Shown here in pieces: positions 2,764-62,655 of a stretch of 64,000 bases of DNA (position 1 is the stretch's first letter; each line of letters starts with the position of its first letter). The DNA lies in IMG/VR virus record IMGVR_UViG_3300009184_000029, positions 62,001 through 126,000 of that record; one strand, written 5' to 3'. This DNA is from a virus. The position numbers and the translations under genes are program-made. The notes under the pieces were generated by a model. It did not search any database and was not told the DNA's origin. It saw nothing but the letters and a program-made list of their open reading frames with translations.

Positions 2764-4038
2764 ATGAGTAAATTAAAACCAATCGGAAGCGAAAAATTAG
2801 AGGGAAAGGCTAAATTGCAAAGAATGTTAGAAATTGCAAAATACAATGAAACCCCAAAAGAATCAATTAATGAAGTAACTTCAAAAGACTATTCTATTCA
2901 GTTATCTGATGGAAATGTTTATGAAATATATAAAGAAAAGAATGGTTATATTCTAAAGAAAAAAATCAATGAGTCTACTTCAGAATATTTGGAGCCAATG
3001 AAGAATAGAAAATACTATTCGTCTTATTCACAGGCTTTGAAAAGGTTAAATCTTTTAACTAAAGAGATTAACACTTTGACTGAACATTCTGAAAATATTT
3101 CATTGTTTGGAGAGTCTAAGCGTTTTTTTTTAAAGAGAGCTAAGGGTGGATACAACGATGAAACACCTGAAGGTGAATTAGAAGAGCAACCTACTCCTCC
3201 GGCAGCCCCTGTGGCACCAACACCTCCTCCACCACCTGTTGAAGATGAAATGGGTCCTGAGGAACCAATTGAACCTGTATCTGATGAAATGGGTCCTGAA
3301 GAACCAATTGAACCGGCATCTGATGAAATGGGAGGGGAAAAAAATGACCAATTTAAATTAATTCAAAAACTTGTGGGTAAATTAACTCAAAAGTTAAGGT
3401 CTAGAAGTGAAAATGATTTATTAACAAGTAAGGAAATTAAATATGTTTTAAACTCAGTAATTTCTTCTTTAGAATTAGATAATTTAGATGAGGAAGACAA
3501 AGAAGAGATTTTAGCGAGATTTGAACCTAATGAAGAAGGTGATGAAATGGGAATGGAAAGTGAAGAAGATTTTGGTGGAGAAGAACCTGTATCACCTGAA
3601 GAAACTCCAGTTCCTCCAGCGCCTGAAGGTGAAATGGAAGAAGGTATGTTCCATTCTGATAGATTTGAAAAAATCTCTAGCAAGTATCCTGATATGGATG
3701 ACACTGACAGACGTTTTAGAAGTAAAATAATGGATTCAGTTTTTGCTGAGTCTAAAGTTGATAAAGTATTATCAAAATACTTTGTAGTTAGTGAACTTGA
3801 AGAGAACATTCAAAAAAACAAGAAGAGAATAAAAGAAGAATATTACAACCAAAGAAAAAAAGAGATTGTTAGTGAGATTAGAAAATATTCTTTAACTAAT
3901 AAGCAACGTAGATTATCTGAAGAATTTATTGACACATTACCAATGATTAATTTTGTAGGTAGAACAAACAAAGGAAACTTAGTTTTTGAACACAAAAATA
4001 ATCAAGTTAAAATAAGTCCTGAAGGTAGAATTTTATGA
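2764..4038 (+). CDS. Acidic, proline-rich probable virion or prohead protein
   Basis: This 424-residue protein is not recognised by family. The N-terminal ~130 residues form a Lys/Glu-rich mixed region (SIQLSDGNVYEIYKEKNGY). A disordered Pro/Glu segment follows, with three 13-residue units beginning DEMG at about residues 161-190. The middle is helical (NDQFKLIQKLVGKLTQ), a second acidic segment follows, and the tail is basic and coiled-coil-like. The layout of helical blocks joined by acidic linkers is common in scaffold-like or internal head proteins. It heads the run of genes leading to the terminase, and its stop overlaps the next start (ATGA). A head role is inferred from position only. 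Confidence 0.7.
   Translation: MSKLKPIGSEKLEGKAKLQRMLEIAKYNETPKESINEVTSKDYSIQLSDGNVYEIYKEKNGYILKKKINESTSEYLEPMKNRKYYSSYSQALKRLNLLTKEINTLTEHSENISLFGESKRFFLKRAKGGYNDETPEGELEEQPTPPAAPVAPTPPPPPVEDEMGPEEPIEPVSDEMGPEEPIEPASDEMGGEKNDQFKLIQKLVGKLTQKLRSRSENDLLTSKEIKYVLNSVISSLELDNLDEEDKEEILARFEPNEEGDEMGMESEEDFGGEEPVSPEETPVPPAPEGEMEEGMFHSDRFEKISSKYPDMDDTDRRFRSKIMDSVFAESKVDKVLSKYFVVSELEENIQKNKKRIKEEYYNQRKKEIVSEIRKYSLTNKQRRLSEEFIDTLPMINFVGRTNKGNLVFEHKNNQVKISPEGRIL
3244..3330 (+). repeat. 39-bp tandem repeat coding DEMGPEEPIEPxS
   Basis: Two full units start at 3244 and 3283, and a partial third starts at 3322. They keep the frame and encode a Pro/Glu linker. The units are nearly identical at DNA level, which points to recent duplication. 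Confidence 0.85.
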
Positions 4039-27679: not shown

Positions 27680-28319
27680 CCTTTTTAATTTTATCTATTA
27701 TACTTTGCAGTTCTTTTAATTTTGTAATGGAATACTTTGACTCAGAATCTTCATTATATTGAGTGTTATATTTTATACAAGGTTTTTTACTTTTTTTAAT
27801 TAGTTCAGGATTTGAAGTCACTAATACATCAAAATTCCCCCAAATACTATCTTCTGTAATCTTACTATAAAAAATATATTTCTCAACTAAACATCCAAAC
27901 TTTGATAAGAAAAAAAGAGTTGCGGGTTTAGATTTACCGATTTCATCTGAAATTATTACTATTTCGTTATCGTCTCGGTTATTTAAATAAAATTCGTTTA
28001 AATCGTTAAACGTTGACATTTCAGTTGATGAGGCATGTCCAAATATCCCCATAGCAAAATCCTCATACATAAATGAGTACAATTCTTCTTCATTTCTAAA
28101 TTTAAAGTGATTTAATAAATTTAAACTTGTAACAGGTGATAAAACCTCATAATTAAATTTATCCTCAACAACTGATTCCAAATTGTTTTCATCGGTAATG
28201 TCAATTTTAACCAAAGTTTCTTCAGTTTCATTTTCATCAATCATATGTTTCTCATATAATTGAGTGAATTTTGCAATAGTATCCCTTAAAACTCCGTTAA
28301 CCTCAATCCCTATCTTCAT
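27657..28319 (-). CDS. HAD-like protein with a degenerate catalytic motif
   Basis: The protein opens with MKIGIEVNGVLRDT, which lines up with HAD motif I (DxDGVLxDT). Here the nucleophile Asp is Glu6 and the second Asp is Asn8. A later segment has IVIISDEIGKSKPATLFFL, resembling motif II/III with a conserved Lys. The 220-residue size fits a nucleotidase-like HAD enzyme. With both acidic residues altered, phosphatase activity is doubtful. It overlaps PhoH upstream and the 87-residue gene downstream. A sugar-phosphate phosphatase ancestor is possible but inference. Confidence 0.7.
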   Translation of the reverse strand: MKIGIEVNGVLRDTIAKFTQLYEKHMIDENETEETLVKIDITDENNLESVVEDKFNYEVLSPVTSLNLLNHFKFRNEEELYSFMYEDFAMGIFGHASSTEMSTFNDLNEFYLNNRDDNEIVIISDEIGKSKPATLFFLSKFGCLVEKYIFYSKITEDSIWGNFDVLVTSNPELIKKSKKPCIKYNTQYNEDSESKYSITKLKELQSIIDKIKKDDVKSIQ

Positions 28320-29034
28320 ATCTTTTTAATAATTCAGTAATAATCGGATTTCTAACAACATCTCCATCTCCAAATTCATGGACACCAACTTCAGACATGT
28401 TTCTTAATCTTTCTAAAACGTCCCATAATCCTGAGTGTTTTTTATCTTTATATCTGTCAGTTTGTTCTAAGTCACCGGAAATAAAGAATTTACTATCAGT
28501 CCCAATACGAGTTAAAAGAAGTTTCATTTGTTTTGGTGTGGCATTTTGTGCTTCTTCAAAAATTAATATTGAGTTGTCAATATTCATACCTCTCATATAT
28601 GCCAAGGCAAAAACCTCAATAACCTCTAACTGTTTTAATTTTTCTCTAGCCTCCTTACCTATAATTTTGTTTAATAAATAATAAGATGGAAAAATATAAG
28701 GGTCCAATTTCTCTTCCACATTACCTGGTAATGAACCTAATTTCTCTTCAGCCTCGACCGCAGGTCGAACAATAATTATTTTCTCATATGGGGAATCATG
28801 TTCGGCCAATAAGTCAACTGCTGCCTTCATTGCAATAAAACTTTTACCAACACCCGCAGGTCCTGAACAAACAGTAATTTGGTTTCGTCTAAGTTTATCG
28901 TAATACTCCCTTTGACTTTGGGTTAAGAATTTATCCTTACCCTTTTTTATAATTCTACAAATTTGGTCTTTTTTTGAGACCTTAGTTTCTGACCCAAAAT
29001 CAATTGGGTCTTTAGTTGTTTTCTTTCTTGTCAT
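28303..29034 (-). CDS. phoH: PhoH-like ATPase
   Basis: The 243-residue P-loop ATPase has Walker A GPAGVGKS at residues 58-65 and Walker B SILIFEEAQN at 155-164. It also has the family stretch IIIVRPAVEAEEKLGSLPGN and the sensor segment FFISGDLEQTDR. PhoH-like proteins are common in large marine and gut phages and are linked to RNA metabolism or phosphate stress; their exact role in phages is unsettled. It is soluble and lacks the KH or PIN domain seen in cellular PhoH2. It sits inside the glycan block between Gmd and the HAD-like gene, with overlaps on both sides. Confidence 0.93.
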   Translation of the reverse strand: MTRKKTTKDPIDFGSETKVSKKDQICRIIKKGKDKFLTQSQREYYDKLRRNQITVCSGPAGVGKSFIAMKAAVDLLAEHDSPYEKIIIVRPAVEAEEKLGSLPGNVEEKLDPYIFPSYYLLNKIIGKEAREKLKQLEVIEVFALAYMRGMNIDNSILIFEEAQNATPKQMKLLLTRIGTDSKFFISGDLEQTDRYKDKKHSGLWDVLERLRNMSEVGVHEFGDGDVVRNPIITELLKRYEDRD

Positions 29035-30008
29035 TATTTAATTGTATAATAATCCATCCAGTAGTCAATCATTTCATCTAACATTGACTCAAATGTATAG
29101 TCATGTAACCAACCTGTTTTAATTTTTAATTTTGAACAGTCTCCTTTTAAATCGTGTAATTCTTCAGGTCTTAAAAATTTTTCATCTTGTTTAACATATT
29201 CAGACCAATTTAGACTTAATCTTGTAAAAACATAATTGACAAGTTCTTTCACTGAATGAGATATTCCTGTTGAACAAACAAAATCATCGGGTTCATCTAA
29301 TTGTAATATTTCCCACATTGCCTTAACATAATCTTTAGCGTGTCCCCAGTCACGAGTAGCGTCAAGATTACCCAATTTAAGTTCATTGGATAGTCCTAAT
29401 TTAATCTTAACCGCTTCTTTACATACTTTATTAGTTACAAAGTTTGTTCCCCTTCTTGGGGATTCATGATTAAATAAAATCCCATTTGAAATAAACATTC
29501 CGTAAGAATTTCTATAATTACGACAAATGTTATAACTGAATACCTTAGCACACCCGTATGGGGACACAGGATTCATTGGAGTAGTTTCTCTTTGATATCC
29601 ATCTGAGTCAATTGAATTACCAAACATTTCTGAAGAAGATGCTTGATATATTTTTGTGTCAGGCTTAATTAATTTAACCGCCTCTAAAAGATTTAAAGTT
29701 CCTAATCCTGTTACATTTGTTGTGTAAATTGGTTGGTCAAATGAAATTCTAACATGTGATTGAGCAGCTAAATTATATATCTCATCTGGCATTATTTTCT
29801 GAACTACTGATATTAGTGAAGACATGTCAGTTAAGTCCGCATAGTGAAGTTTTATCTTAGTATAAACATTATCCAATCTTGATGTTTGGTTTTCGGCAAC
29901 TGAATTTCTTTTTAAAGTTCCGTGAACTTCATACCCTTTTTCTAATAAAAATTCACTCAAATATGACCCATCTTGGCCATTTATTCCTGTTATTAATGCT
30001 TTTTTCAT
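29034..30008 (-). CDS. gmd: GDP-mannose 4,6-dehydratase
   Basis: Gmd converts GDP-mannose to GDP-4-keto-6-deoxymannose, the precursor of GDP-fucose, GDP-rhamnose, GDP-perosamine and GDP-colitose. The 324-residue extended SDR has the NADP loop TGINGQDGSYLSEFLLEKGY, the catalytic stretch SSSEMFG, and Tyr/Lys in SPYGCAKVFSYN. It also has the GDP-binding segment SPRRGTNFVTNK. It is slightly shorter than cellular Gmd (about 345-370). No adjacent gene is a clear GDP-fucose synthase. The GT10 and GT11-type genes in this window suggest that fucose may still be the end product. Function is firm; the product used is inference. Confidence 0.94.
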   Translation of the reverse strand: MKKALITGINGQDGSYLSEFLLEKGYEVHGTLKRNSVAENQTSRLDNVYTKIKLHYADLTDMSSLISVVQKIMPDEIYNLAAQSHVRISFDQPIYTTNVTGLGTLNLLEAVKLIKPDTKIYQASSSEMFGNSIDSDGYQRETTPMNPVSPYGCAKVFSYNICRNYRNSYGMFISNGILFNHESPRRGTNFVTNKVCKEAVKIKLGLSNELKLGNLDATRDWGHAKDYVKAMWEILQLDEPDDFVCSTGISHSVKELVNYVFTRLSLNWSEYVKQDEKFLRPEELHDLKGDCSKLKIKTGWLHDYTFESMLDEMIDYWMDYYTIK

Positions 30009-37546: not shown

Positions 37547-38233
37547 TTATAATATTTTTTTTAATTTTTGTAAACCCATTGTAGTATCTGAGGGTACATT
37601 TAATGGTTTAAGAATTGGTACAACAATTGAAGTTTTTATTGCCAAATCGTAAATTGATTTTGATTCCGTACCCACATTATAAACTCCATTTTCATTTTTT
37701 AAAATTAATCTAATGACAAGTGATGAAATAATGTCAACATAATCACAATTTGTTTTAATGTCTGTCCAAGCTTTATCGTATGGGAATGGATTTGGTTTAT
37801 GTGATAATCTACAAATTAAATAATTATTACATTTTAATTGGACATGCCCGTCAGATAAAAGTTTTGTATAACCATACCATGTATTTAAATGTGATGGTAC
37901 ATCTTCTTCTGACGCATTCGGCACTGAATTAGCGTAAATATAATCAGTAGATATTTGAATTAATTTTTTATTAGTCTTATTACAATATTCGACTAACTCA
38001 TCAACAAATTTATAATTTATTAACCAATTAGAATTTTTATCATCGGAATAAGTTTTAGTAAATGCAATACAATTTAAAATTACACTATAATTTTCCATAT
38101 ATGGAATTAATGTTTCAAAATTTAAAACATCAATATTATTTTTTTTCCTTGAAATAAAATCCCAATTAGTTTGTCTGTAAATTTCAGACCCAAGTAACCC
38201 GTCTCCTAAAATTAATACTTTTAATTTATCCAT
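37547..38233 (-). CDS. RmlD-like SDR nucleotide-sugar reductase
   Basis: The 228-residue protein is an extended SDR of the dTDP-4-dehydrorhamnose reductase type. It has the NAD(P) loop KVLILGDGLLGSEIYRQT and the catalytic region LIQISTDYIYANS with Tyr/Lys in TWYGYTKLLSDG. It is shorter than RmlD (about 290). It overlaps the RfbH-like gene by 13 nt, so the pair may act in sequence on one nucleotide sugar, for example as a final reduction step. Substrate specificity is inference. Confidence 0.85.
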   Translation of the reverse strand: MDKLKVLILGDGLLGSEIYRQTNWDFISRKKNNIDVLNFETLIPYMENYSVILNCIAFTKTYSDDKNSNWLINYKFVDELVEYCNKTNKKLIQISTDYIYANSVPNASEEDVPSHLNTWYGYTKLLSDGHVQLKCNNYLICRLSHKPNPFPYDKAWTDIKTNCDYVDIISSLVIRLILKNENGVYNVGTESKSIYDLAIKTSIVVPILKPLNVPSDTTMGLQKLKKIL

Positions 38234-39525
38234 TTTTGTTTAAATATATTTTCTACATATTCAAAAATATCTTCGTCATAATGAGGTGCAGCCCCTAAGA
38301 AAAAAACTCTATCCAAGACCATATTTGAATTTGGGTATTTATTAAAATCATCTAAATGAAAGTATCCCGGATGATATAAAATGTTGCCTGCAAAATAATT
38401 TCTAGTTTGTATTTTATTATCCTCAAGAAATTTAACTAAGGTGTCTTTTAATTCTTTATTTTCACAAATAAAAGGTGTTCCAAACCAGCATGTTTCAGAT
38501 TTAGTTAAAGAATTAACTCCTTTTACTCCTGTAACATATTTTACAATAATGTCCTGAATTCTTCTTTTACTATTTTTTCTTTTTGAATCTATTTCCTCAA
38601 ATTTTGATAACTGTACTAATCCAATTGACCCTTGTAAATCCATTGGCTTTAAATTATAACCCATGTTAGTAAAGACATATTTATGGTCAATAATTCCATT
38701 ATATGACTCTAACCAATTATCGAATCTATTTTTACAAGTACCACAAGACAACAAATTTGCAGAACCAACACAATAACAATCTCTTCCCCACCATGAGATA
38801 CTAACAAATAGTTTTTTTAAATCTTCAATATTAGTACAAATCATCCCACCTTCCCCTGTTGAAATGTGGTGAGCGGGATAAAAAGAACATGACCATGCAA
38901 TATAATAATCTGATATTGGTTTATTATCCCATTTTGTGCCTAATGTATCACAACTATCCCCTACTAATTTTAAATTATATTTTTCACATAATTCTTTTAA
39001 AAAATCCATATCAGGAGGATTCCCTAATACAGGAGAAACAAATATTGCTTTAGTTTTATCCGTAATCTTCTCTTCAATCTTTGTTACATCAAAATTTAAA
39101 GTTTCCCACTCAATATCAATAAAAACAGGTTTTAATCCATTTTGGACTATAGGAGCAATTGTTGTTGGAAATCCTACAGGAGAAACAATAATTTCATCCC
39201 CATCTTCCCATTTAAAAAACTTTTTAAGTGCGGTGATTAATACCAAATTTGCGGAACTACCTGAGTTCACCATATGAGAATACTTTACTCCAAATATTTT
39301 TGAAAACATATTTTCAAACTTGTGAACATTTTCACCTGCAACAATCCATTTTCCTGAAATTAAAGTGTTAATCGCTGAAAGTATTTCTTCATGGTCCCAA
39401 TAAGGTCCTGAATATAAAACTTGGCTTTTTCCTGGCACAAATTTTTGATTGTATAGATACTTAGGATTATTTAATATGATGTAATCCTTAATATCGTTTA
39501 ATAAATCTTCTATTTTTTTTGACAT
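38221..39525 (-). CDS. rfbH: RfbH-like nucleotide-sugar 3-dehydrase (PLP, 2Fe-2S type)
   Basis: The 434-residue protein is a PLP fold-type I enzyme of the DegT family. The Schiff-base lysine position reads SFYPAHHISTGEGG, with His219/His220 in its place. That substitution marks 3-dehydrases of the E1/RfbH and ColD type. Four cysteines at residues 250, 252, 261 and 264 (GRDCYC, SCGTC) match the 2Fe-2S site of the CDP-4-keto-6-deoxyglucose-3-dehydrase E1. ColD lacks such a cluster. The reaction removes the C3 hydroxyl on the way to 3,6-dideoxyhexoses. It lies beside the RmlD-like gene. No matching E3 reductase is in the window, so a host partner may be needed. Confidence 0.9.
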   Translation of the reverse strand: MSKKIEDLLNDIKDYIILNNPKYLYNQKFVPGKSQVLYSGPYWDHEEILSAINTLISGKWIVAGENVHKFENMFSKIFGVKYSHMVNSGSSANLVLITALKKFFKWEDGDEIIVSPVGFPTTIAPIVQNGLKPVFIDIEWETLNFDVTKIEEKITDKTKAIFVSPVLGNPPDMDFLKELCEKYNLKLVGDSCDTLGTKWDNKPISDYYIAWSCSFYPAHHISTGEGGMICTNIEDLKKLFVSISWWGRDCYCVGSANLLSCGTCKNRFDNWLESYNGIIDHKYVFTNMGYNLKPMDLQGSIGLVQLSKFEEIDSKRKNSKRRIQDIIVKYVTGVKGVNSLTKSETCWFGTPFICENKELKDTLVKFLEDNKIQTRNYFAGNILYHPGYFHLDDFNKYPNSNMVLDRVFFLGAAPHYDEDIFEYVENIFKQKWIN

Positions 39526-39548: not shown

Positions 39549-40313
39549 TTAATTATCAATAGAGACCCATTCATTTGGAATTATGTCTTGAGTATCTTTT
39601 GGTCCGGTTGGTCCAAACCATTTTTTTGGTGTAATTATTTTACCATTATTATCATTAAGATATGACCCCCACCAACTGAATGAACTATTAGATATTATAA
39701 CATTTTTACACATAGTAATTAATGTAAAATCTAAAATTTCATCATCAAAATCTGAGTATAAAAAATTATCAGATTTAAAGTTTAATTTAACCCAATCCAT
39801 ATCATCTGACACAAATATAAATTTTGTGTCATTGATTAACTCAATTGCCTTTTGGTAATAATTTAAATCACAGGTAAAATGAAAATCTTTAAATTTTAAA
39901 TAATCACCTCTTCTTATATGAACACAAGTTAAATTTTTAATATCATATTTACTTGATATTACTTTAATATTTTTATCACTAATAAAAAATAATTTTTTAA
40001 TATCATTTATATTATTTTTAAAATATTTTTCACTTTGGAAATACCCATTTAACAATAAATTTTTTTCATAAGGTATATTAGAAAACGAAAACTTTGGTTC
40101 ATTATATTTTTTTTCAAATTCATAGTTATTGTGATTTGGAATATTTTTAAAAATATTATCTATATATTTGATAGATTGATTACCTTGATTTGGTGTGTAA
40201 CATTGATGAAAATTAAATGAATAGGTATCATCATTAGACAATGCTAATGACACTGTTGCTGCAATTTGGAACATTTGATTACCAAGACCTCCCTGTAAAT
40301 TACAACTTATCAT
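39549..40313 (-). CDS. GT11 alpha-1,2-fucosyltransferase
   Basis: The protein has all GT11 landmarks in order: SCNLQGGLGNQMFQIAATVS, TCVHIRRGDYLKFKD (HxRRGDY), and ISNSSFSWWGSYLN. At 254 residues it is a compact member. It would use GDP-fucose, and Gmd in the same block can make the precursor. It is a more typical GT11 than the one at 30871. It overlaps the GT2 gene by 14 nt. Confidence 0.93.
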   Translation of the reverse strand: MISCNLQGGLGNQMFQIAATVSLALSNDDTYSFNFHQCYTPNQGNQSIKYIDNIFKNIPNHNNYEFEKKYNEPKFSFSNIPYEKNLLLNGYFQSEKYFKNNINDIKKLFFISDKNIKVISSKYDIKNLTCVHIRRGDYLKFKDFHFTCDLNYYQKAIELINDTKFIFVSDDMDWVKLNFKSDNFLYSDFDDEILDFTLITMCKNVIISNSSFSWWGSYLNDNNGKIITPKKWFGPTGPKDTQDIIPNEWVSIDN

Positions 40314-41017: not shown

Positions 41018-41698
41018 TTATTTAATATATTTTTTTAAAATTTTATCATTATACCCCTCTCTGTTGATTTGTAAAAAATCTATACTTTGATTAATTAAAA
41101 TATCATTTTCTGTATCCCAATTTAAATTTAATAAATGTGTTTCTTCTTTTATTTTCGGATTTTTATGTAGTAAACCATATATTTTATTTGATAACTCCAT
41201 GACACTTATTTTCTCAACTCCTGATAAAAATAATAAACTATTATTTGTTTTATCAATACAATATAGAACAATATTTACCAAATCTTCAATATCAATCAGA
41301 GAACGATAAACATTTTTATAAATTAATATTTCATTTTCATTTTTAACAGATTCTTTTAAAAAATTAACAATATTATTTTTATTTCCGTTAAATCCAACTA
41401 TTTGAGGAATTCTAAATATTATATAATTTTTACAATTGTTTTTGATAATTTCCTCGACTTGTAATTTATGTCTATAGTAATCATTATCAATTATTCCTGT
41501 TAATACGCTGCTAAAATAAATTAATTTTAAATTTTGATTGTTATTAATTAAATTAATTAATAATTTTTTTTCTCGTTCAAAATTATTGATGTTTGTTTCT
41601 TTAGAGTTAGATACACCTGAAGCAAAAATTAAAAAATTCTCTAATGACTCGGAAAATTTTTTAAACTCTGAGGATAATAAACCTGAGCCAACAATCAT
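41018..41698 (-). CDS. Epimerase-like SDR protein
   Basis: The 226-residue protein begins MIVGSGLLSSEFKKFSESL, a short SDR nucleotide loop. It contains LKLIYFSSVLTGIIDNDYYR with the following His-Lys, where Tyr-x-x-x-Lys of the SDR active site is expected (DYYRHK). Later it has FRIPQIVGFNG and YRSLIDIEDLVNIVL, both typical of NDP-sugar epimerases. It is compact and lacks part of the usual C-terminal domain. It might provide the epimerase/reductase step missing after Gmd, but that is inference. Confidence 0.75.
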   Translation of the reverse strand: MIVGSGLLSSEFKKFSESLENFLIFASGVSNSKETNINNFEREKKLLINLINNNQNLKLIYFSSVLTGIIDNDYYRHKLQVEEIIKNNCKNYIIFRIPQIVGFNGNKNNIVNFLKESVKNENEILIYKNVYRSLIDIEDLVNIVLYCIDKTNNSLLFLSGVEKISVMELSNKIYGLLHKNPKIKEETHLLNLNWDTENDILINQSIDFLQINREGYNDKILKKYIK

Positions 41699-50914: not shown

Positions 50915-53900
50915 ATGGCACAAGGAAAAACAATAACACAATTACCCTTAATATTAAGTGCGGATAGTTCGTCTAGCACAATTATCGTAAAAGATGGAGT
51001 TACAAGTCAAATACAGTACTCGGCTTTAACAGTTAGTCCTGAAGTATTTCAGACTACAGTTGATTCTAAACTTGGTTTAACAGGAGGTACAGTTGACGGA
51101 CAGGTACAAATAGTATCATCTTTAAGTTCTGAAGTACCGGGACAATCTTCACAATTACTACCAACAACAGGATGGACATCAAATGGATGGACTGGTAATT
51201 TTACAACAGGATTTACTCATACAACAGGTAATACTACAACATTAGTAAGTACATATTCAGCAAGTCCTGCTACAACATATGTACTTAAATACGATATAAT
51301 ACCCACAAACACAACATATGATATATATTTTGGACAAAATGGAGAGTATTTAAATACTAGTTTAAACGTTACAAATACAGTCGGATGCTCAAGTAATAAA
51401 GAAGTAAACGCTGGATTTATATGTTACGATGGTTTCCAAGTAAAATATTTTATTACTAATGATGCCAAATCAGGTACTCAATGTATTAATGGAAATTGTC
51501 CAAAAGGATTTAAATGTGAAGGTGGGGAATGTGTTGTTGATTTAGATTCGGGCGTGTGGTCTGAAAAATATGTTGGGTATGATTGTGCAAAAGTTGTTGC
51601 AAGTCCTTGTACATACGCAACTGCAGTTAATATAGGATGTCATACTTGTTGTAATGCGAGACCAATACCTGTAATATGTGACGGACAACAACAAATTATT
51701 GGATACGTTAATGAGTGTGCATTATACGGACCTTCTAAAAGTACAACATACTCAGGTCCAAATGGTATAATATATACCGAATTACTTGAGGAATTTATTG
51801 ATAATATAACTTTTAATGACACATTTAGAGGACGTATAAATTACGGTTCTTCTTGTGACGGTAACGCCGATTGCGGACCGGGTTATGTTTGTCTAAACGG
51901 ATATTGTGTTAGACAAATTATAACATCATCAATGATTTCAGGATTAGAATGTGCTTCAAGTACTTATTGTCCACAAGGATTTACATGTAATAATGGTAAT
52001 TGTGAACCTGATTTAGCATCAGGATTTTGGATTGAAATTGGAGAAAAACCGGGAGGATATCCAATATACCAAGGACCAGGTGGAGTTGAACTTCACACAG
52101 GATGGGATGAAGGGGAAGGATATGCATTATATGAAAATCCAAATAGTTATGTTGGAGAATATAGACAAACTTGTTCAATAAATAACGATTGTCCAAAAGG
52201 TTTTATATGTGTTGATGGATATTGTGTTAAATTAATACAAACATCAAACTTGTTCAATGGAATGAGTAACAAAGGGGTTTGTGGATGTCCAACAGGATAT
52301 AAAACCAATCCTGTTTATCCATATACAGCAACAACATCTTGTTTTGCGGATTTAGAAAGTGGTTATTGGACAAATGTTGGCACAAGTTCAAATAACGCAA
52401 ATGGAACAGTAACAATAAGTTTTGGTGGAATATCTGCAACAACAAATACTTCAGGAAGTATTGGAGTTTATGCTAAAGATTATTCACCATTAAGAGTCAC
52501 TCCGACCAGTAATTTTGACGGTTTATTATTGACGTACTTGAGAGAAGTTACGGGAACAACAACGTCAACATTTACATTGTCTGATGGAAACTCCGCAAAT
52601 GTTACACAACTTAGAGGTGGTACCGCAAATTTATATAATAATTTTATAGGTGTTGATTCAGGTAATCAAAATATAAGTGGACAAAGAAATTTATCTTTAG
52701 GACAAAACACATTAACAAGTAATGTTAGTGGAAGTAAAAACGTATCAATTGGAGTTGATAGTTTAAAATCAATAGTTGCGTCTGATTCTAATATTGCAAT
52801 CGGTGACTCGGCATTATTAAATAATGGATATGGTTCCAATAACGTCGCAATAGGTACAAATTCAATGTTGGTGGATAAAGACCCTAATTGTTCAGTGGCA
52901 ATAGGGGATAATTCATTAGCAAATAACTCAGAAATTGATGGTAATGTTGCAATAGGATGTTCTGCAGGTGAAAAAAGTAATGTACCAAACACTGTTTATA
53001 TTGGAGCAAGGTCAGGACTTATTGATTTGGGAGAAGGGTCAACATTTGTTGGTTATGAAAGTGGTTTAAATAACATAGGAAATTATAACACTTTTTTAGG
53101 TAATTTAGCCGGATATAGTAATACATCGGGAGACAATCTAACATTTATAGGATATAATTCGGGATTAAATAATACTTCGGGGTCTGAAAATACATTTATC
53201 GGTTCTGAATCAGGAGTTTATAATCAAGACGGAATTCGTAATGTTGCTATAGGTTCTTATGCCGGGGCATTTACATTGGATGGGGTTACTGAAAACACGT
53301 CACCAAACCGTTCGGTTTATATTGGTAGTAATACAAAATCATTTAATGTTAATGATACAAATTCAATAGTAATTGGTTTTGGAGCTGAAAGTCAGGGTGA
53401 TAATACTGTTGTTATTGGTAATGACAATACTGAAACAATATATTTAAATGGTGATTTAAATGTTACCGGAGCAGACTCAACATCATTTAATGTTAATGAC
53501 TTTGGAATAAATTCAACTGATGTAATAACATTAGTCACCGATTCTTTATCTATTCAAGATAGTCAGGGTGACGGTTATCATTTAACAACAAATAGTGGTC
53601 AAAATGGTCAAGTTTTAACATATACTAACGGAAATGCCATTTGGCAAAACACATCTGGAGATGGAAATGTTACAGGCTCAGGCACTTTAAATTATATACC
53701 AAAATGGTCAGGTTCAACTGGGTTACGTAATAGTGTAATTTTTGATAATGGTTCATTTGTCAGTGTCGGATATAACAATTTACTTACTTCATTTATAGTA
53801 TCCGCAAACACATTTAACATAGGAAAAGGTGGTAGCACTTCATCAAGAGCATTATTCATGGGAAAATCAATCCCATCAACATGGCTAGGTTCAGATAGTT

Positions 53901-55045
53901 GTGGTCAGTTTGATTTTAACAATCCTGGTGGTGACCAAGGAGTTGTTATTAGAACAAATGCGGGATATGTTGGCACCGGAGGAACACCTGTTGCAGGAGG
54001 AATTATTTCAGTTCAGGGTAATGCTAAAGGTTTAATATTTGCGGGTAATCCTATAGAGGAAAACCATTTAGTTATTGATAGTTTTGGTAAAGTTGGTATT
54101 GGTACAAATATACCAGTTTCTAAATTAGACGTTAGTGTTACGGCAAATACTATCGGTGTGAGAATATCAGGTAATAGTGACTCAGAGATGTTAAGAATTA
54201 CACAGACAGGTAATGGGAACGCATTTGTGGTCGAAGATTCCTCAAATCCTGACTCAACTCCATTTGTTATAACATCGGGAGGTACTGTGGGTATTGGTAT
54301 TGATTCACCATTACATGGATATAAATTACATGTCAGGGACGGAGCTGCAACAAATAGTATTGGAATTAGCGGTACAATGTCCGTATTTGAAAGTACTGGA
54401 AATACATATGTGAGTATTTTAAGTCCAAATGCAAATACCTCAGGTATTGCATTTGGTACTGATGAGTTACGTAGTGCGTCCTATCTTAGATGGAGTTACA
54501 CTAATAACCAAATGTCTTTATCTACTAATAGAACGGGGGCAACTTTATCTTTTTCTACCGATAACGAACAGCAGAGAATGTTAATAACATCAGGAGGAAG
54601 TGTGGGTATCGGAACTTCATCACCATCAACAACTTTACATGTTTCGGCAAGTACAAACCCTGTTAGATTTGAAGGTTTACAAACAAACACAGGAGCAACT
54701 AAAACAGTAATTGCAGATAATAACGGAGTTCTTTATACTGAAACCAAACCTAAAAAATATGTTGCGTTATTAACACAAACAGGTACAAGTGCTCCAACCG
54801 CGATTGTTTTAGAAAATACATTAGGTAATATCACATTTAGTTATTTTCAAACTGGCAAATATACAGTAACCGCAACTGGATTGTTAACATTAAATAAAAC
54901 AACAGTTATTACAGGAGGAGCGGTTTGTGCTATAGATACATTAACTGCGAATGGGTTTAATTTATCATCATACAGTATGCCACCAGTTGCTAACGCTAAT
55001 GGAATACTGAATAACTCAACTATTGAGATTAGCGTTTATCCGTAA
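50915..55045 (+). CDS. Giant tail fibre with cysteine-knot-like modules and YadA-like repeats
   Basis: The 1376-residue protein begins with a fibre-type N-terminus (GKTITQLPLILSADSSSSTI). Residues ~185-480 contain about four cysteine modules such as CINGNCPKGFKCEGGEC and CDGNADCGPGYVCLNGYC. Three of the cysteine segments run into a shared DLxSGxW strand (VDLDSGVW, PDLASGFW, ADLESGYW). Residues ~575-835 are YadA-head-like repeats (NVAIGTNSM, TVYIGARSG, NTFLGNLAG). Later repeats (KVGIGTNIPVSKLDV) match trimeric fibre shafts. The C-terminus ends in a compact beta domain. Trimeric fibres contact the host. Disulphide-rich modules are rare in phage fibres. Modules resemble EGF or Dickkopf-like ones in spacing only; homology is not shown. 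Confidence 0.85.
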   Translation: MAQGKTITQLPLILSADSSSSTIIVKDGVTSQIQYSALTVSPEVFQTTVDSKLGLTGGTVDGQVQIVSSLSSEVPGQSSQLLPTTGWTSNGWTGNFTTGFTHTTGNTTTLVSTYSASPATTYVLKYDIIPTNTTYDIYFGQNGEYLNTSLNVTNTVGCSSNKEVNAGFICYDGFQVKYFITNDAKSGTQCINGNCPKGFKCEGGECVVDLDSGVWSEKYVGYDCAKVVASPCTYATAVNIGCHTCCNARPIPVICDGQQQIIGYVNECALYGPSKSTTYSGPNGIIYTELLEEFIDNITFNDTFRGRINYGSSCDGNADCGPGYVCLNGYCVRQIITSSMISGLECASSTYCPQGFTCNNGNCEPDLASGFWIEIGEKPGGYPIYQGPGGVELHTGWDEGEGYALYENPNSYVGEYRQTCSINNDCPKGFICVDGYCVKLIQTSNLFNGMSNKGVCGCPTGYKTNPVYPYTATTSCFADLESGYWTNVGTSSNNANGTVTISFGGISATTNTSGSIGVYAKDYSPLRVTPTSNFDGLLLTYLREVTGTTTSTFTLSDGNSANVTQLRGGTANLYNNFIGVDSGNQNISGQRNLSLGQNTLTSNVSGSKNVSIGVDSLKSIVASDSNIAIGDSALLNNGYGSNNVAIGTNSMLVDKDPNCSVAIGDNSLANNSEIDGNVAIGCSAGEKSNVPNTVYIGARSGLIDLGEGSTFVGYESGLNNIGNYNTFLGNLAGYSNTSGDNLTFIGYNSGLNNTSGSENTFIGSESGVYNQDGIRNVAIGSYAGAFTLDGVTENTSPNRSVYIGSNTKSFNVNDTNSIVIGFGAESQGDNTVVIGNDNTETIYLNGDLNVTGADSTSFNVNDFGINSTDVITLVTDSLSIQDSQGDGYHLTTNSGQNGQVLTYTNGNAIWQNTSGDGNVTGSGTLNYIPKWSGSTGLRNSVIFDNGSFVSVGYNNLLTSFIVSANTFNIGKGGSTSSRALFMGKSIPSTWLGSDSCGQFDFNNPGGDQGVVIRTNAGYVGTGGTPVAGGIISVQGNAKGLIFAGNPIEENHLVIDSFGKVGIGTNIPVSKLDVSVTANTIGVRISGNSDSEMLRITQTGNGNAFVVEDSSNPDSTPFVITSGGTVGIGIDSPLHGYKLHVRDGAATNSIGISGTMSVFESTGNTYVSILSPNANTSGIAFGTDELRSASYLRWSYTNNQMSLSTNRTGATLSFSTDNEQQRMLITSGGSVGIGTSSPSTTLHVSASTNPVRFEGLQTNTGATKTVIADNNGVLYTETKPKKYVALLTQTGTSAPTAIVLENTLGNITFSYFQTGKYTVTATGLLTLNKTTVITGGAVCAIDTLTANGFNLSSYSMPPVANANGILNNSTIEISVYP

Positions 55046-55098: not shown

Positions 55099-56343
55099 AT
55101 GAAAATTTTTATACAAGTCGCGTCTTATCGTGACCCTCAGTTATTACCTACAATTAATTCTGCGATAGAAAATGCAAAAAAACCAAATAATTTGGTATTT
55201 GGAATCGCTAGACAATTTAAAGAAGACGATGGTTTTGATAACTTAGATGAGTATTCTAAAGATAAAAGATTTAGAATTTTAAACATACCATATAATGAAT
55301 CAAAGGGTGCGTGTTGGGCTAGAAATCAAATCCAACAATTACATAAGGGTGAAAAATATACATTACAGATTGATTCTCATATGAGATTCGCCCCTAATTG
55401 GGACGAAGAAATGATAAAAATGGTTAAATCTTTACAAAAAAAAGGTCACAAAAAACCATTATTAACGGGATATGTTTCATCATTTGACCCTGAAAATGAC
55501 CCTGAAAGTAGAGTTAAAGAACCATGGAGAATGGTTTTTGATAGGTTTATTCCTGAAGGGGCTGTATTCTTTTTACCCGAAACAATACCAAATTACCAAG
55601 ATTTAACTGAACCAATTCCCGCTAGATTTTATTCTGCACATTTTTGTTTTACATTAGGGGAGTTTGCAAAAGAGGTCCAACACGACCCTGAATTTTATTT
55701 TCATGGTGAAGAAATCTCAATATCTGCTAGAGCATATACCCATGGTTATGACTTATTTCACCCTCATAAAACATTAATTTGGCACGAATATACTAGAAAA
55801 GGTAGGACAAAACAGTGGGATGATGACGGTAAATGGGTTGAAAAAAATAACCATTGTCATAAAAAGAATAGGTCTTTATTTGGAATGGATGATGAAAATG
55901 AAATGGAACATGGGATTTATGGGTTTGGAAAAGATAGAAGTTTAAGGGATTATGAAAAATATTCAGGGTTACTTTTTTCAAAAAGAGCGGTACAACAATA
56001 TACATTAGATAAGAATTATCCTCCAAATCCTTATAATTTTGATAATGAAGACGATTGGTTAAATTCATTCTCATCAATATTCAAGCATTGTATAGACGTA
56101 CAATATTCAAGTGTACCTGAAAGAGATTATGATTTTTGGGCAGTTGCATTTCATGGTGATAATGATGATACAATATATCGTAAAGATTGTGATGAAAGAG
56201 AGATTCAATCTTTCTTTAGAGACCCTGATGGGTATTGTAAAATATGGAGAGAATTCCCAACTCTAACTAAACCAAAATATTGGGTAGTTTGGCCACATTC
56301 TAAATCAAAAGGATGGGGTGAAAGATTAACAGGTAATTTATAA
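55099..56343 (+). CDS. GT60-like (Skp1 GlcNAc-transferase type) glycosyltransferase
   Basis: The 414-residue protein has KIFIQVASYRDPQLLPTINS, then GACWARNQIQQLHKGEKYTL followed by QIDSHMRFAPNWDEEMIKMV. It also has FYFHGEEISISARAYTHGYD and LFHPHKTLIWHEY. This is the pattern of the GlcNAc-transferase family (PF11397) whose eukaryotic members modify hydroxyproline on Skp1. QIDSH is the metal site. Members exist in bacteria and viruses with unknown acceptors. It lies directly after the fibre gene, so a fibre or another surface glycan may be the target, by inference. Confidence 0.88.
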   Translation: MKIFIQVASYRDPQLLPTINSAIENAKKPNNLVFGIARQFKEDDGFDNLDEYSKDKRFRILNIPYNESKGACWARNQIQQLHKGEKYTLQIDSHMRFAPNWDEEMIKMVKSLQKKGHKKPLLTGYVSSFDPENDPESRVKEPWRMVFDRFIPEGAVFFLPETIPNYQDLTEPIPARFYSAHFCFTLGEFAKEVQHDPEFYFHGEEISISARAYTHGYDLFHPHKTLIWHEYTRKGRTKQWDDDGKWVEKNNHCHKKNRSLFGMDDENEMEHGIYGFGKDRSLRDYEKYSGLLFSKRAVQQYTLDKNYPPNPYNFDNEDDWLNSFSSIFKHCIDVQYSSVPERDYDFWAVAFHGDNDDTIYRKDCDEREIQSFFRDPDGYCKIWREFPTLTKPKYWVVWPHSKSKGWGERLTGNL

Positions 56344-58708: not shown

Positions 58709-59580
58709 AAAAAATTAAGTTTATAACCGCAATATATAATGACCTTTTTGGTAGTGAATTTGGGGGTAGGATTAACCGACAACATCACTATAAATGGAGT
58801 TTGATTTCATTATTAAGAATGACAGACGCCGATTTTGTATGTTATACATCAAAAAGAGAACTTGATGATTTACGTAGTTTCTTCTATGAAAAGAATAACA
58901 TACCAGAAAGTCAACTTAAATTTATTGAGTTTGAATTATCAGATAAAAAAAATTTCAGTTTTATTGATGAATATAAAAATATTGAGGAAATTCGCAAATC
59001 AGACAGATGTTATGAAATACAATACAATAAGTTTTTTTGGTTCTTAAATGAGGATTTGTCTTATGAATATTATTATTGGTTAGATGCAGGATTGTCTCAT
59101 TGTGGGTTATTACCTGATAAGTACTTAACGTATTGTGATGAATATAGAGGATATTATGATTCTTATTTTTTTGATAATAATTTTTTAAATAATCTATTAG
59201 AAAAAACAAAAGAAAACATAGTTGTATTTTCAAAGGACAACCATAGAAATTTTTGGAGTGGAACAGTTCCACCTCAATATTATAATGAATACGATTCTTC
59301 AGTTCATATTATTGGTGGGTTATTTGGTGGTAAAAAAGAAAATATGAAGTGGTTTGTTGACGAATTTGATAAGATGTTAAATCTAATAACCAACGAACAA
59401 AAAAAGATATATAGTGAAGAACAAATAATGTCATTAATTTATCAAAACAATAAAAGTAAATTTAAAACATTTGATTTTGATGTATGGTGGCATGAGACAA
59501 ATGGCCCCAAAGGACTACCTGAAGATTTTTTTGTAGTTAATAAAAGTTTTTATAAATCATTAGAAGACGTTAATATATGA
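58705..59580 (+). CDS. HtrL/YibB-like protein
   Basis: The 291-residue protein begins KIKFITAIYNDLFGSEFGGR and carries SYEYYYWLDAGLSHCGLLPD, with the WLDAGL motif in the place of the WIDSG site of the YibB family. It continues HIIGGLFGGKKENMKWFVDE and ends with a His/Trp-rich segment. YibB-like proteins are found in LPS and capsule loci and look like glycosyltransferases, though their activity is not established. It overlaps its fused paralogue at 59577 by 4 nt. Confidence 0.78.
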   Translation: MKKIKFITAIYNDLFGSEFGGRINRQHHYKWSLISLLRMTDADFVCYTSKRELDDLRSFFYEKNNIPESQLKFIEFELSDKKNFSFIDEYKNIEEIRKSDRCYEIQYNKFFWFLNEDLSYEYYYWLDAGLSHCGLLPDKYLTYCDEYRGYYDSYFFDNNFLNNLLEKTKENIVVFSKDNHRNFWSGTVPPQYYNEYDSSVHIIGGLFGGKKENMKWFVDEFDKMLNLITNEQKKIYSEEQIMSLIYQNNKSKFKTFDFDVWWHETNGPKGLPEDFFVVNKSFYKSLEDVNI

Positions 59581-61256
59581 GTTTTACTTTAGTTACTGGT
59601 TTATGGGATATTGGAAGAGGAGAACTTAATGAAGGATGGTCAAGAAGTTTTAATCACTACTTAGATAAATTTGAGGAGTTATTAAAAATAGAAGAAAATT
59701 TAATAATTTTTGGAGATTCAGAGTTAGAAAAATTTGTAAGTGAAAGAAGAAATCCAAAAAATACTCAATTTATAATTAGAAATTTAGATTGGTTTAAAAA
59801 TAACGATTACTATGAAAAAATTCAAAATATAAGAAATAGTTCGGAGTGGAAACATCAATCAGGATGGTTAAAGGATTCCACTCAAAGTAGGTTAGAAATG
59901 TATAACCCTTTGGTTATGTCAAAAATGTTTTTATTAAATGACGCTAGAATTTTTGACAAGTTTAACTCTCAATTTTTATTTTGGATTGATGCAGGTATTA
60001 CCAACACAATCCATCCTGGATATTTTACTCACGATAAAGTATTTGATAAATTACCTAAAGAAATTAAAAAGTTTACATTTGTTTGTTTCCCATATAATGC
60101 GTCCAATGAAATTCACGGATTTGAATATCCTGAAATAAATAAATGGGCGGAAGGTAATGTTAAAAAAGTTGCCAGAGGAGGATTTTTTGGAGGTCCTAAA
60201 GAAACTATATCTGAAATAAACTCACAGTATTATAACTATTTAATTAACACATTAAGTGAGGGATTAATGGGAACTGAAGAGTCAATATTCTCAATAATGG
60301 TATATTCCAAATCAGAATTAATTGATTATTACGAAATCGAAGAGAATGGACTGATGGGTAAGTTTTTTGAGGACATTAAGGAAAATAGTTTGGATAAAAA
60401 AAGTGAATATAAACCAAAATCAACGTACCTTACAAAATACGATAAGAATAATGTCGGTTTATATGTAATAACTTTTAATAGTCCAAATCAATTTAAAACT
60501 TTAATTAATTCAATGTTAGAATATGATTCGGACTTTGTTAATTCCCCAAAAAGAAAAATATTATTAAATAACTCTACCGATTTATCGACCACGGATGAAT
60601 ATGTTAGATTGTGTGAAGAATTTGGATTTGAACACATAAAAAAAGATAACATAGGTATTACAGGTGGAAGACAATTCATTGCGGAACACTTCAATGAAAC
60701 TGAATTAGATTACATGTTCTTTTTTGAGGATGATATGTTTTTTTATAATAAAAAGGGGGAAGTTTGTAATAATGGATTTAACAGATATACCCCAAATTTA
60801 TATAAAAAATCTTTAAGTATTATTCATGAAGAAGATTTTGATTTTTTAAAATTAAATTTCACCGAATTTTATGGTGATAATTCAACACAGTGGAGTTGGT
60901 ATAATGTACCCCAAAATTTTAGAGAAACTCATTGGCCTAAAAACAAAAAATTACCTGTACAAGGATTAGACAAGAATGCTCCAAGAACAAAGTTTAATGA
61001 AATAAAATCATATAATGGATTACCATATGCTTCAGGGGAAGTATACATATGTAATTGGCCGATTCTCCTATCAAAAGAAGGTAGTTATAAATGTTATGTC
61101 GAAACAAAATATGCAAGTCCATTTGAACAAACAATAATGTCTCACAATTACCAAGAGATGGTTAAAGGTAATTTAAACCCAGGATTACTATTAATTACTC
61201 CTACTGAACATAATAGATTTGAACATTATGAATCAAGTTTAAGGAAAGAATGTTAA
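59577..61256 (+). CDS. YibB-like domain fused to a second glycosyltransferase-like domain
   Basis: The 559-residue protein has an N-terminal YibB-like half (FTLVTGLWDIGRGELNEGWS, FWIDAGITNTIHPGYFTHDK, KKVARGGFFGGPKETISEIN). The second half, from about residue 290, opens NNVGLYVITFNSPNQFKTLI and has GITGGRQFIAEHF and YMFFFEDDMFFYNKKGE. This looks like a GT2-type domain with EDD as the metal motif. Together they would make a bifunctional enzyme. The N-terminal half is a paralogue of the gene just upstream. It is the last of the six sugar genes between the fibres. Confidence 0.8.
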   Translation: MSFTLVTGLWDIGRGELNEGWSRSFNHYLDKFEELLKIEENLIIFGDSELEKFVSERRNPKNTQFIIRNLDWFKNNDYYEKIQNIRNSSEWKHQSGWLKDSTQSRLEMYNPLVMSKMFLLNDARIFDKFNSQFLFWIDAGITNTIHPGYFTHDKVFDKLPKEIKKFTFVCFPYNASNEIHGFEYPEINKWAEGNVKKVARGGFFGGPKETISEINSQYYNYLINTLSEGLMGTEESIFSIMVYSKSELIDYYEIEENGLMGKFFEDIKENSLDKKSEYKPKSTYLTKYDKNNVGLYVITFNSPNQFKTLINSMLEYDSDFVNSPKRKILLNNSTDLSTTDEYVRLCEEFGFEHIKKDNIGITGGRQFIAEHFNETELDYMFFFEDDMFFYNKKGEVCNNGFNRYTPNLYKKSLSIIHEEDFDFLKLNFTEFYGDNSTQWSWYNVPQNFRETHWPKNKKLPVQGLDKNAPRTKFNEIKSYNGLPYASGEVYICNWPILLSKEGSYKCYVETKYASPFEQTIMSHNYQEMVKGNLNPGLLLITPTEHNRFEHYESSLRKEC

Positions 61257-61653: not shown

Positions 61654-62655
61654 ATGGAATGGTTTATTAAAAAAAATTCAACACAACCTATTTTACAACT
61701 TGAGTTTTCTCTCAATGGTAGGAGTGATTTTAATAAGAATGAAAATTTAACAAATTTCCCATCTGTTTATATATCTTTTTTAGATGTTAATAAGGGGAAA
61801 TATTTATCAACTTCAAAAACGTGTTACATAACAAAAAGTGGGTTAACCACAAATCCTACCGTTGAGAAGTATTATGTTAATTATCAATTTACGAATAAAG
61901 AAACTAAAAATATTGGTAGATATGAAGCTCAATTATCTATGATAGGTACTGACGGTACAAATATACTACCAATATCTGAAAAATTATATATTAATGTGAT
62001 TGATAGTTTTTCAGCTGATTATTATGGGTTTGATACAAATTATAAATTAGAAAGACCTTGTTGTAATGGTAAAGGAATTACTCCCGAACCTGAACCTGAA
62101 CCATTACCCGACGCTTTATTATTTATTGAGCCGGTTTCAAAATCTTCTTTTGTTTCAAATTATATGGTATCTCAGGGAGTGAATTTTTACGGTTTTAATT
62201 ATGGAATACCTCCAACATCTGATGATGATATTTTAAACTATATGGAAATGTATGCCAATTATGGTGACGATAATAATTTACCAATAGTTATACGACAAAC
62301 AATACCCCAAACTAATGGAGGTTATGATGATTTTAACAATCCTATAACAAAATATAATTTTTTAACAACCGAGATTGATTTAGGAACAATAAATGAAGAC
62401 GCTTGGTATACTTGGGTTATACCCATGGATTCTTTAGGAGGAGGTAAACAAACTAAAATATCTTATAGTACATCATCCCCAAATGACCTATTAACTGAAA
62501 ATATGAACAATCTAATATATCAATACGATGTTGTTTATAATGGTGTGAGCTTTAATTCGGGAAAATATTCAGTTTATACAACTTTTCAAAGTCATAATTT
62601 TAGGTTGAATAATAATAATAGATATATTTATTTTAAAGGTCATACTGTAGAATAA
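61654..62655 (+). CDS. Fibre-associated protein, 333 aa, with duplicated N-terminal domain
   Basis: Residues 1-~125 repeat the domain of the 122-residue gene upstream. A short Pro/Glu linker (ITPEPEPEPLPDALLF) follows, then a second beta-rich domain with many Asn, Tyr and Thr residues. The protein has two cysteines (PCCNGKG) at the end of the first domain. It looks like a baseplate or fibre adaptor with an added C-terminal domain. The next fibre gene starts 1 nt after its stop. Confidence 0.75.
   Translation: MEWFIKKNSTQPILQLEFSLNGRSDFNKNENLTNFPSVYISFLDVNKGKYLSTSKTCYITKSGLTTNPTVEKYYVNYQFTNKETKNIGRYEAQLSMIGTDGTNILPISEKLYINVIDSFSADYYGFDTNYKLERPCCNGKGITPEPEPEPLPDALLFIEPVSKSSFVSNYMVSQGVNFYGFNYGIPPTSDDDILNYMEMYANYGDDNNLPIVIRQTIPQTNGGYDDFNNPITKYNFLTTEIDLGTINEDAWYTWVIPMDSLGGGKQTKISYSTSSPNDLLTENMNNLIYQYDVVYNGVSFNSGKYSVYTTFQSHNFRLNNNNRYIYFKGHTVE

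Follow-up and report, generated by a model that had tools for sequence, protein, structure and literature searches.

A phage-type branch of E1/RfbH-like 3-dehydrases with an interchangeable SDR partner

An open reading frame in a large phage genome apparently encodes an intact E1-type (PMP, [2Fe-2S]) nucleotide-sugar 3-dehydrase that falls in a branch made up mainly of phage proteins, and it is accompanied by an SDR ketoreductase candidate with which it would form a two-gene module. The gene lies in a window of 64,000 nucleotides, which is the whole stretch of DNA analyzed and spans positions 62001 to 126000 of a virus record that is 222,829 bases long. The family assignment, the residues, the pairing and the missing genes described below were computed. 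The presence of this dehydrase gene in phages is already known. What look new are the phage branch, the absence of the usual partner genes and the repeated swapping of the SDR, and it is this branch, with a swappable SDR partner and without CDP or E3 genes, that we consider worth following.

Our preferred model is that the E1-type dehydrase and the SDR make a 3,6-dideoxyhexose from a GDP- or dTDP-linked 4-keto-6-deoxyhexose by using host electrons, and that a phage glycosyltransferase attaches the sugar, most likely to virion proteins. We regard this model as probable but by no means secure. It combines what we infer about the reaction, the electron donor, the nucleotide, the order of the steps, the substrate, the product and the acceptor.

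Table 1. Features of the dehydrase locus, in window coordinates
Feature	Coordinates	Strand	Description
E1/RfbH-like 3-dehydrase, phage-type branch	38221..39525	-	434 aa; one complete uninterrupted ORF
His219 codon	38869..38871	-	Equivalent of E1 His220, in place of the PLP lysine; alignment with 3bcx/3bb8
Cys192 codon	38950..38952	-	Equivalent of E1 Cys193
Cys250 codon	38776..38778	-	Equivalent of E1 Cys251
Cys252 codon	38770..38772	-	Equivalent of E1 Cys253
Cys261 codon	38743..38745	-	Extra cysteine in a 4-residue insertion; no ligand equivalent
Cys264 codon	38734..38736	-	Equivalent of E1 Cys261, the fourth ligand equivalent
Short RmlD-like SDR (type A partner)	37547..38233	-	228 aa; GxxGxxG, STDY and YxxxK; proposed C4 ketoreductase
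GT11 (alpha-1,2-fucosyltransferase-like)	39549..40313	-	Candidate transferase; directly upstream of the dehydrase
Second, weaker RmlD-like SDR of the same cluster	41018..41698	-	Profile matches
GDP-mannose 4,6-dehydratase-like (Gmd)	29034..30008	-	324 aa; SSEMFG and YxxxK; 397.6 bits, cut-off 415

The dehydrase, its active site and its phage branch

The predicted protein matches the Pfam family DegT/DnrJ/EryC1 (236.6 bits). It scores 360.4 bits with the NCBIfam RfbH model NF011936, under the curated cut-off of 423, and it lies outside the canonical RfbH branch, so we do not claim the status of an RfbH equivalog. The best matches among solved structures are E1 of Yersinia pseudotuberculosis (3bcx, 270.9 bits) and the E1 H220K mutant (3bb8), followed by ColD (168 bits). 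Identity to the E1 fragment is 37% in a near full-length alignment. An AlphaFold model (pLDDT 80.2) also has 3bcx as its top structural match, with a TM of 0.80, whereas its pLDDT drops under 50 at residues 246-293, so that the model is weak in the cluster loop. The sequence-only reading, in which the protein was called an RfbH/E1-like 3-dehydrase, is therefore borne out by sequence, fold search and residue conservation. Values of dN/dS between relatives are approximately 0.04-0.09, indicating that the gene is under strong purifying selection.

The same reading proposed that a His219/His220 pair replaces the PLP lysine. The pair is real and aligns with E1, and we assign the role of catalytic base to His219, the first of the two, because the solved E1 mutant H220K (3bb8) alters that first histidine. 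His219 is invariant in 65 of 65 distinct phage relatives, and H220, C192, C250, C252, C261 and C264 are likewise invariant in the 65 distinct phage-derived rows.

Assignment of the putative cluster ligands required a correction. The protein carries cysteines at positions 180, 192, 213, 230, 250, 252, 261, 264, 346 and 354, and the ligand set originally suggested was 250, 252, 261 and 264. All four residues exist, and C250, C252 and C264 are indeed cluster equivalents, but alignment with E1 reveals that C192 had been overlooked and that C261 has no ligand equivalent. The spacing in the 3bcx sequence is C193-X57-C251-X-C253-X7-C261, and these four E1 residues are reportedly the [2Fe-2S] ligands (Agnihotri et al. 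2004). After this alignment the original set was replaced by C192, C250, C252 and C264, which align with the ligand positions. C261 resides in an insertion of four residues, and other residues take its place in the cyanophage proteins and the nearest bacterial proteins of this branch (CYCVGQQNLLSNGVCGRRF); the fourth ligand is therefore not C261. Canonical bacterial proteins, too, differ in how long a loop separates the CxC pair from the final cysteine.

The phage enzyme shares with E1/RfbH/AscC/DdhC (CDP-4-keto-6-deoxyglucose 3-dehydrase, 3bcx) the DegT/AAT-I fold, the histidine in place of the PLP lysine and four aligned cysteines, and differs from it by the insertion with its extra cysteine in the cluster loop and by its placement in a separate, supported branch. 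With ColD (GDP-4-keto-6-deoxymannose 3-dehydrase, 2gms, 3b8x) it shares the fold and the active-site histidine, whereas ColD lacks the cluster cysteines and is a match approximately 100 bits lower than E1. The alignment with E1 and ColD places no lysine at the PLP site and does not move the cysteines off the cluster. Membership in the ColD group was rejected on residues, given that the cluster cysteines are present, as was a sugar aminotransferase (DegT/DnrJ) function, given that His219 stands where a catalytic lysine is required. Published work describes a four-cysteine motif in E1 and SpnQ, the lack of a cluster in ColD, and the replacement of lysine by histidine (PMC8987622). In our preferred model, which draws on the chemistry of E1, ColD and SpnQ, the 3-OH of an NDP-4-keto-6-deoxyhexose would be lost via a PMP-hexoseen intermediate, with His219 acting as the acid/base, and a cluster at C192/C250/C252/C264 would deliver two electrons.

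Relatives of the dehydrase are encoded in 522 stretches of viral contigs. There are 81 matching phage records, most of them distant and seven at 50-80% identity. LR756502, a phage of 642 kb, has a relative at 77% identity, and the SDR is present there as well. Cyanophage S-H68 carries the GenBank annotation 'CDP-4-dehydro-6-deoxy-D-glucose 3-dehydratase', and rfbH is named among viral (auxiliary) genes in two publications (PMC10653327 and PMC11295528). These observations contradict the initial impression that such an enzyme is seldom met in phages. Contamination with host DNA was ruled out as the source of the gene, since the same 222.8-kb record, which is low in G+C, holds T4-like portal and major head (gp23-like) genes and since relatives occur in many phages. 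One match, OR851175 ('Salmonella phage'), was left out of account; it is a 2.6-kb fragment of unverified status. A second DegT-family match in LR756502 (437607-438713, near locus L099) is 31% identical, has one internal stop, and is located about 7 kb from the dehydrase of that phage.

One genome per species was searched for 84,980 species of bacteria and archaea; of the 80 top-scoring loci, only five come close (49-58%) and the others are at 33-41%. A tree unites the window protein and 22 other phage proteins in one group with a support of 99. The neighboring group contains a cyanophage, Prochlorococcus, Nitrosomonadaceae and Bacteriovoracaceae; both groups are separate from all canonical RfbH proteins, including Yersinia E1. 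The homologue in cyanophages S-H68, RN05-S and S-B05 belongs to the same branch and is 53% identical to the window protein, but it lacks Cys261, and its cluster carries a type B SDR (described below) together with RmlB and RmlC; in RN05-S these three genes are adjacent.

An SDR partner slot

The ORF for the RmlD-like SDR shares 13 bases with the dehydrase gene, which confirms the overlap noticed earlier. The gene downstream of the dehydrase codes for an SDR in 50 of the 55 proteins scanned from non-redundant phage loci, the window's own included. Two SDR types are involved, and 52 of 56 non-redundant phage loci have exactly one of them: type A, as in the window, is found at 37 loci and type B at 15, none has both, and four have neither (two of these end at a contig end). 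The type B protein is about 272 aa long and has the motifs SSWFVYG and YSITK. GxxGxxG and YxxxK are common to both types, and their mutual similarity is otherwise marginal. A role for type B as a 4,6-dehydratase was rejected, because SSWFVYG lacks the catalytic Glu of those enzymes, and this fits a reductase instead. The bacterial members of the branch carry type B, which is located upstream of the dehydrase in the three read in detail.

When the SDR label is mapped on the dehydrase tree, it changes 7 times (6-7 in bootstrap trees) compared with a mean of 16 after shuffling, and at least 4 of the changes are forced by supported branches. A chance figure of 2e-10 exaggerates the evidence, since related loci are not independent, and the repeated swaps carry more weight. 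These swaps indicate that the two SDRs occupy one functional slot, and two distinct SDRs in one slot suggest a single step. Reduction at C4 would be the chemically obvious step to follow 3-deoxygenation, judging from the motifs and the pathway order, and the overlapping RmlD-like SDR is accordingly predicted to yield an NDP-3,6-dideoxyhexose. SDRs of this kind can also epimerize.

A precedent exists in Salmonella, where rfbJ (abequose synthase) and rfbS (paratose synthase) are alternative C4 reductases that act after a shared 3-dehydrase and set which 3,6-dideoxyhexose results (PMC6989106). The phages resemble this system in having alternative SDRs beside one kind of 3-dehydrase, but they differ in that their two SDR types are distinct and that O-antigen export genes are lacking.

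Nucleotide, substrate and electrons

The Gmd-like protein is the only 4,6-dehydratase found across the 222.8-kb record, and no RmlB is present in that record. An RmlA (446.9 bits, over its cut-off; G000:C1:6434-7303, L082) and an RmlC-like protein (89.7 bits, under its cut-off; G000:C1:47101-47559, L084) are encoded far from the cluster. Among all carriers, RmlB above 290 bits is found in 6 of 19 records; three carriers have both Gmd and RmlB, and 10 of 19 have neither in clear form, so the substrate of these ten would have to be supplied by the host. In view of these ten carriers, fixing the nucleotide by Gmd alone was rejected. The RN05-S record was outside the Gmd search and has RmlB. The substrate is probably GDP-linked, by way of the phage Gmd, or dTDP-linked, by way of phage RmlA and the RmlC-like protein with host RmlB, rather than CDP-linked. 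A PhoH-like protein (28303-29034, minus strand, 145.8 bits) is encoded next to Gmd, where the sugar cluster ends.

One alternative is that GDP-4-keto-6-deoxymannose from the phage Gmd undergoes 3-deoxygenation as in the ColD pathway, and that the SDR then generates a GDP-colitose-like sugar for the GT11 enzyme. This would account for the Gmd in the window, a gene that exceeds 350 bits in 6 of 18 carrier records, and for the GT11 genes that lie within the fetched flanks at 29 of 56 phage loci; colitosyltransferases can belong to GT11. However, besides the residues and the score that separate the protein from ColD, a clear Gmd is missing from most carriers, the type A SDR resembles RmlD rather than Fcl/ColC, and GT11 genes are in any case frequent in clusters of this kind. 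We consider this alternative unlikely.

A second alternative, to which we assign a rather low probability, is that the protein works like any E1 on CDP-4-keto-6-deoxyglucose from host RfbF and RfbG with the help of host E3, whereupon the CDP-3,6-dideoxyhexose is added to the host O-antigen. E1 is the nearest characterized enzyme, and in a Bacteriovoracaceae genome RfbF-RfbG are located about 18 kb from the phage-type dehydrase on a contig that has no canonical RfbH, which makes a CDP substrate possible in that lineage. RmlA and RmlB are found beside the dehydrase-SDR pair in a Bacteriovoracaceae genome, too. Against this alternative, RfbF or RfbG is near the dehydrase at 0 of 56 phage loci, whereas RfbF is found at 42 and RfbG at 28 of 75 canonical RfbH loci. 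Neither a CDP-glucose 4,6-dehydratase nor a glucose-1-phosphate cytidylyltransferase was detected over the cut-off in 17 whole carrier records, although carrier records may be fragments and the absence of a gene is no proof. The separate branch and the lack of export genes described below weigh against it as well. In addition, one Nitrosomonadaceae genome combines a canonical RfbF-RfbG-RfbH cluster with a phage-type dehydrase that is encoded at another site and has an SDR of its own, and the two dehydrases probably do different jobs in that genome. Overall, the gene context favors dTDP or GDP over CDP, without deciding the matter.

The phage gene also differs from that of E1 in having no E3 alongside, as well as no RfbF or RfbG, and in its pairing with an interchangeable SDR. 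The search for an E3 gene elsewhere in the genome came back empty: neither PF00111 (Fer2) nor PF00175 (NAD_binding_1) is found in this record or in 16 other carriers, with controls positive in 12 of 14 and 10 of 14. Because the phage lacks E3, we propose that the host would supply the electrons through its ferredoxin or flavodoxin system, in the manner of SpnQ, a cluster enzyme that is active without a dedicated E3 (PMC8987622). SpnQ is likened to the phage enzyme by its described properties; it takes a 2,6-dideoxy substrate, a dTDP-sugar, for an antibiotic and uses ferredoxin/flavodoxin systems. It is highly improbable that the enzyme instead makes a 4-amino-4,6-dideoxysugar for want of a reductase: SpnQ shows such a side activity in the presence of PLP and glutamate (PMC8987622) and the phage has no E3-kind reductase gene, but the PLP site has His, not Lys, the cluster cysteines are invariant in 65 of 65 relatives, and a 4-amino product would leave the paired reductase no ketone.

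Destination of the sugar

The cluster codes for GT2, GT11, GT17-like and GT92-like glycosyltransferases, a methyltransferase and SDRs. 3,6-Dideoxyhexoses are immunodominant bacterial surface sugars, and it had been suggested that the phage might make one for the O-antigen. This idea is unsupported, since neither a Wzx-type flippase (PF01943) nor an initiating transferase (PF02397) is found in this record or in 18 other carriers, with controls positive in 13 of 14 and 9 of 14 genomes. Taken together with the glycosyltransferase context, the lack of these genes favors glycosylation of virion proteins over modification of the O-antigen, and the gene context makes virion proteins the likelier acceptor. 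In our preferred model, a phage glycosyltransferase of the cluster, such as the adjacent GT11 enzyme, would work in the cytoplasm and attach the sugar to its acceptors, most likely virion proteins.

Elsewhere in the window, a PF11397 GlcNAc-transferase (55099-56343, plus strand, 237 bits) is encoded directly after a gene for a 1,376-aa virion structural or tail-spike-like protein (50915-55045, plus strand), and GT10-like and GT7-like genes follow. PF11397 is the family of the Skp1 polypeptide GlcNAc-transferase, and these genes form a possible virion-protein glycosylation locus. An HtrL_YibB-family protein (59577-61256, plus strand) is encoded within a second series of genes for sugar transfer, which lies on that strand. 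Near the sugar cluster of cyanophage RN05-S (L097), 304-855 and 2923-3531 are annotated as 2OG-Fe(II) oxygenases, which together with GlcNAc- and fucosyltransferase-like genes recall hydroxyproline-linked glycosylation.

We know of no phage that has been shown to make a 3,6-dideoxyhexose. As a tentative extension of our preferred model, one that we hold to be possible rather than expected, large phages might combine the dehydrase with one of two interchangeable ketoreductases, draw on host electrons, and use any available GDP- or dTDP-4-keto-6-deoxyhexose. Swapping the reductase would then alter the 3,6-dideoxyhexose on the phage's own virion glycans, as a counterpart of Salmonella rfbJ/rfbS. 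The dehydrase-SDR pair recurs in aquatic phage contigs that number in the hundreds, and the classical CDP and E3 genes do not accompany it. It offers a compact system for probing both the sugars that phages place on virions or hosts and the nucleotide and electron donor that can serve a free-standing E1.
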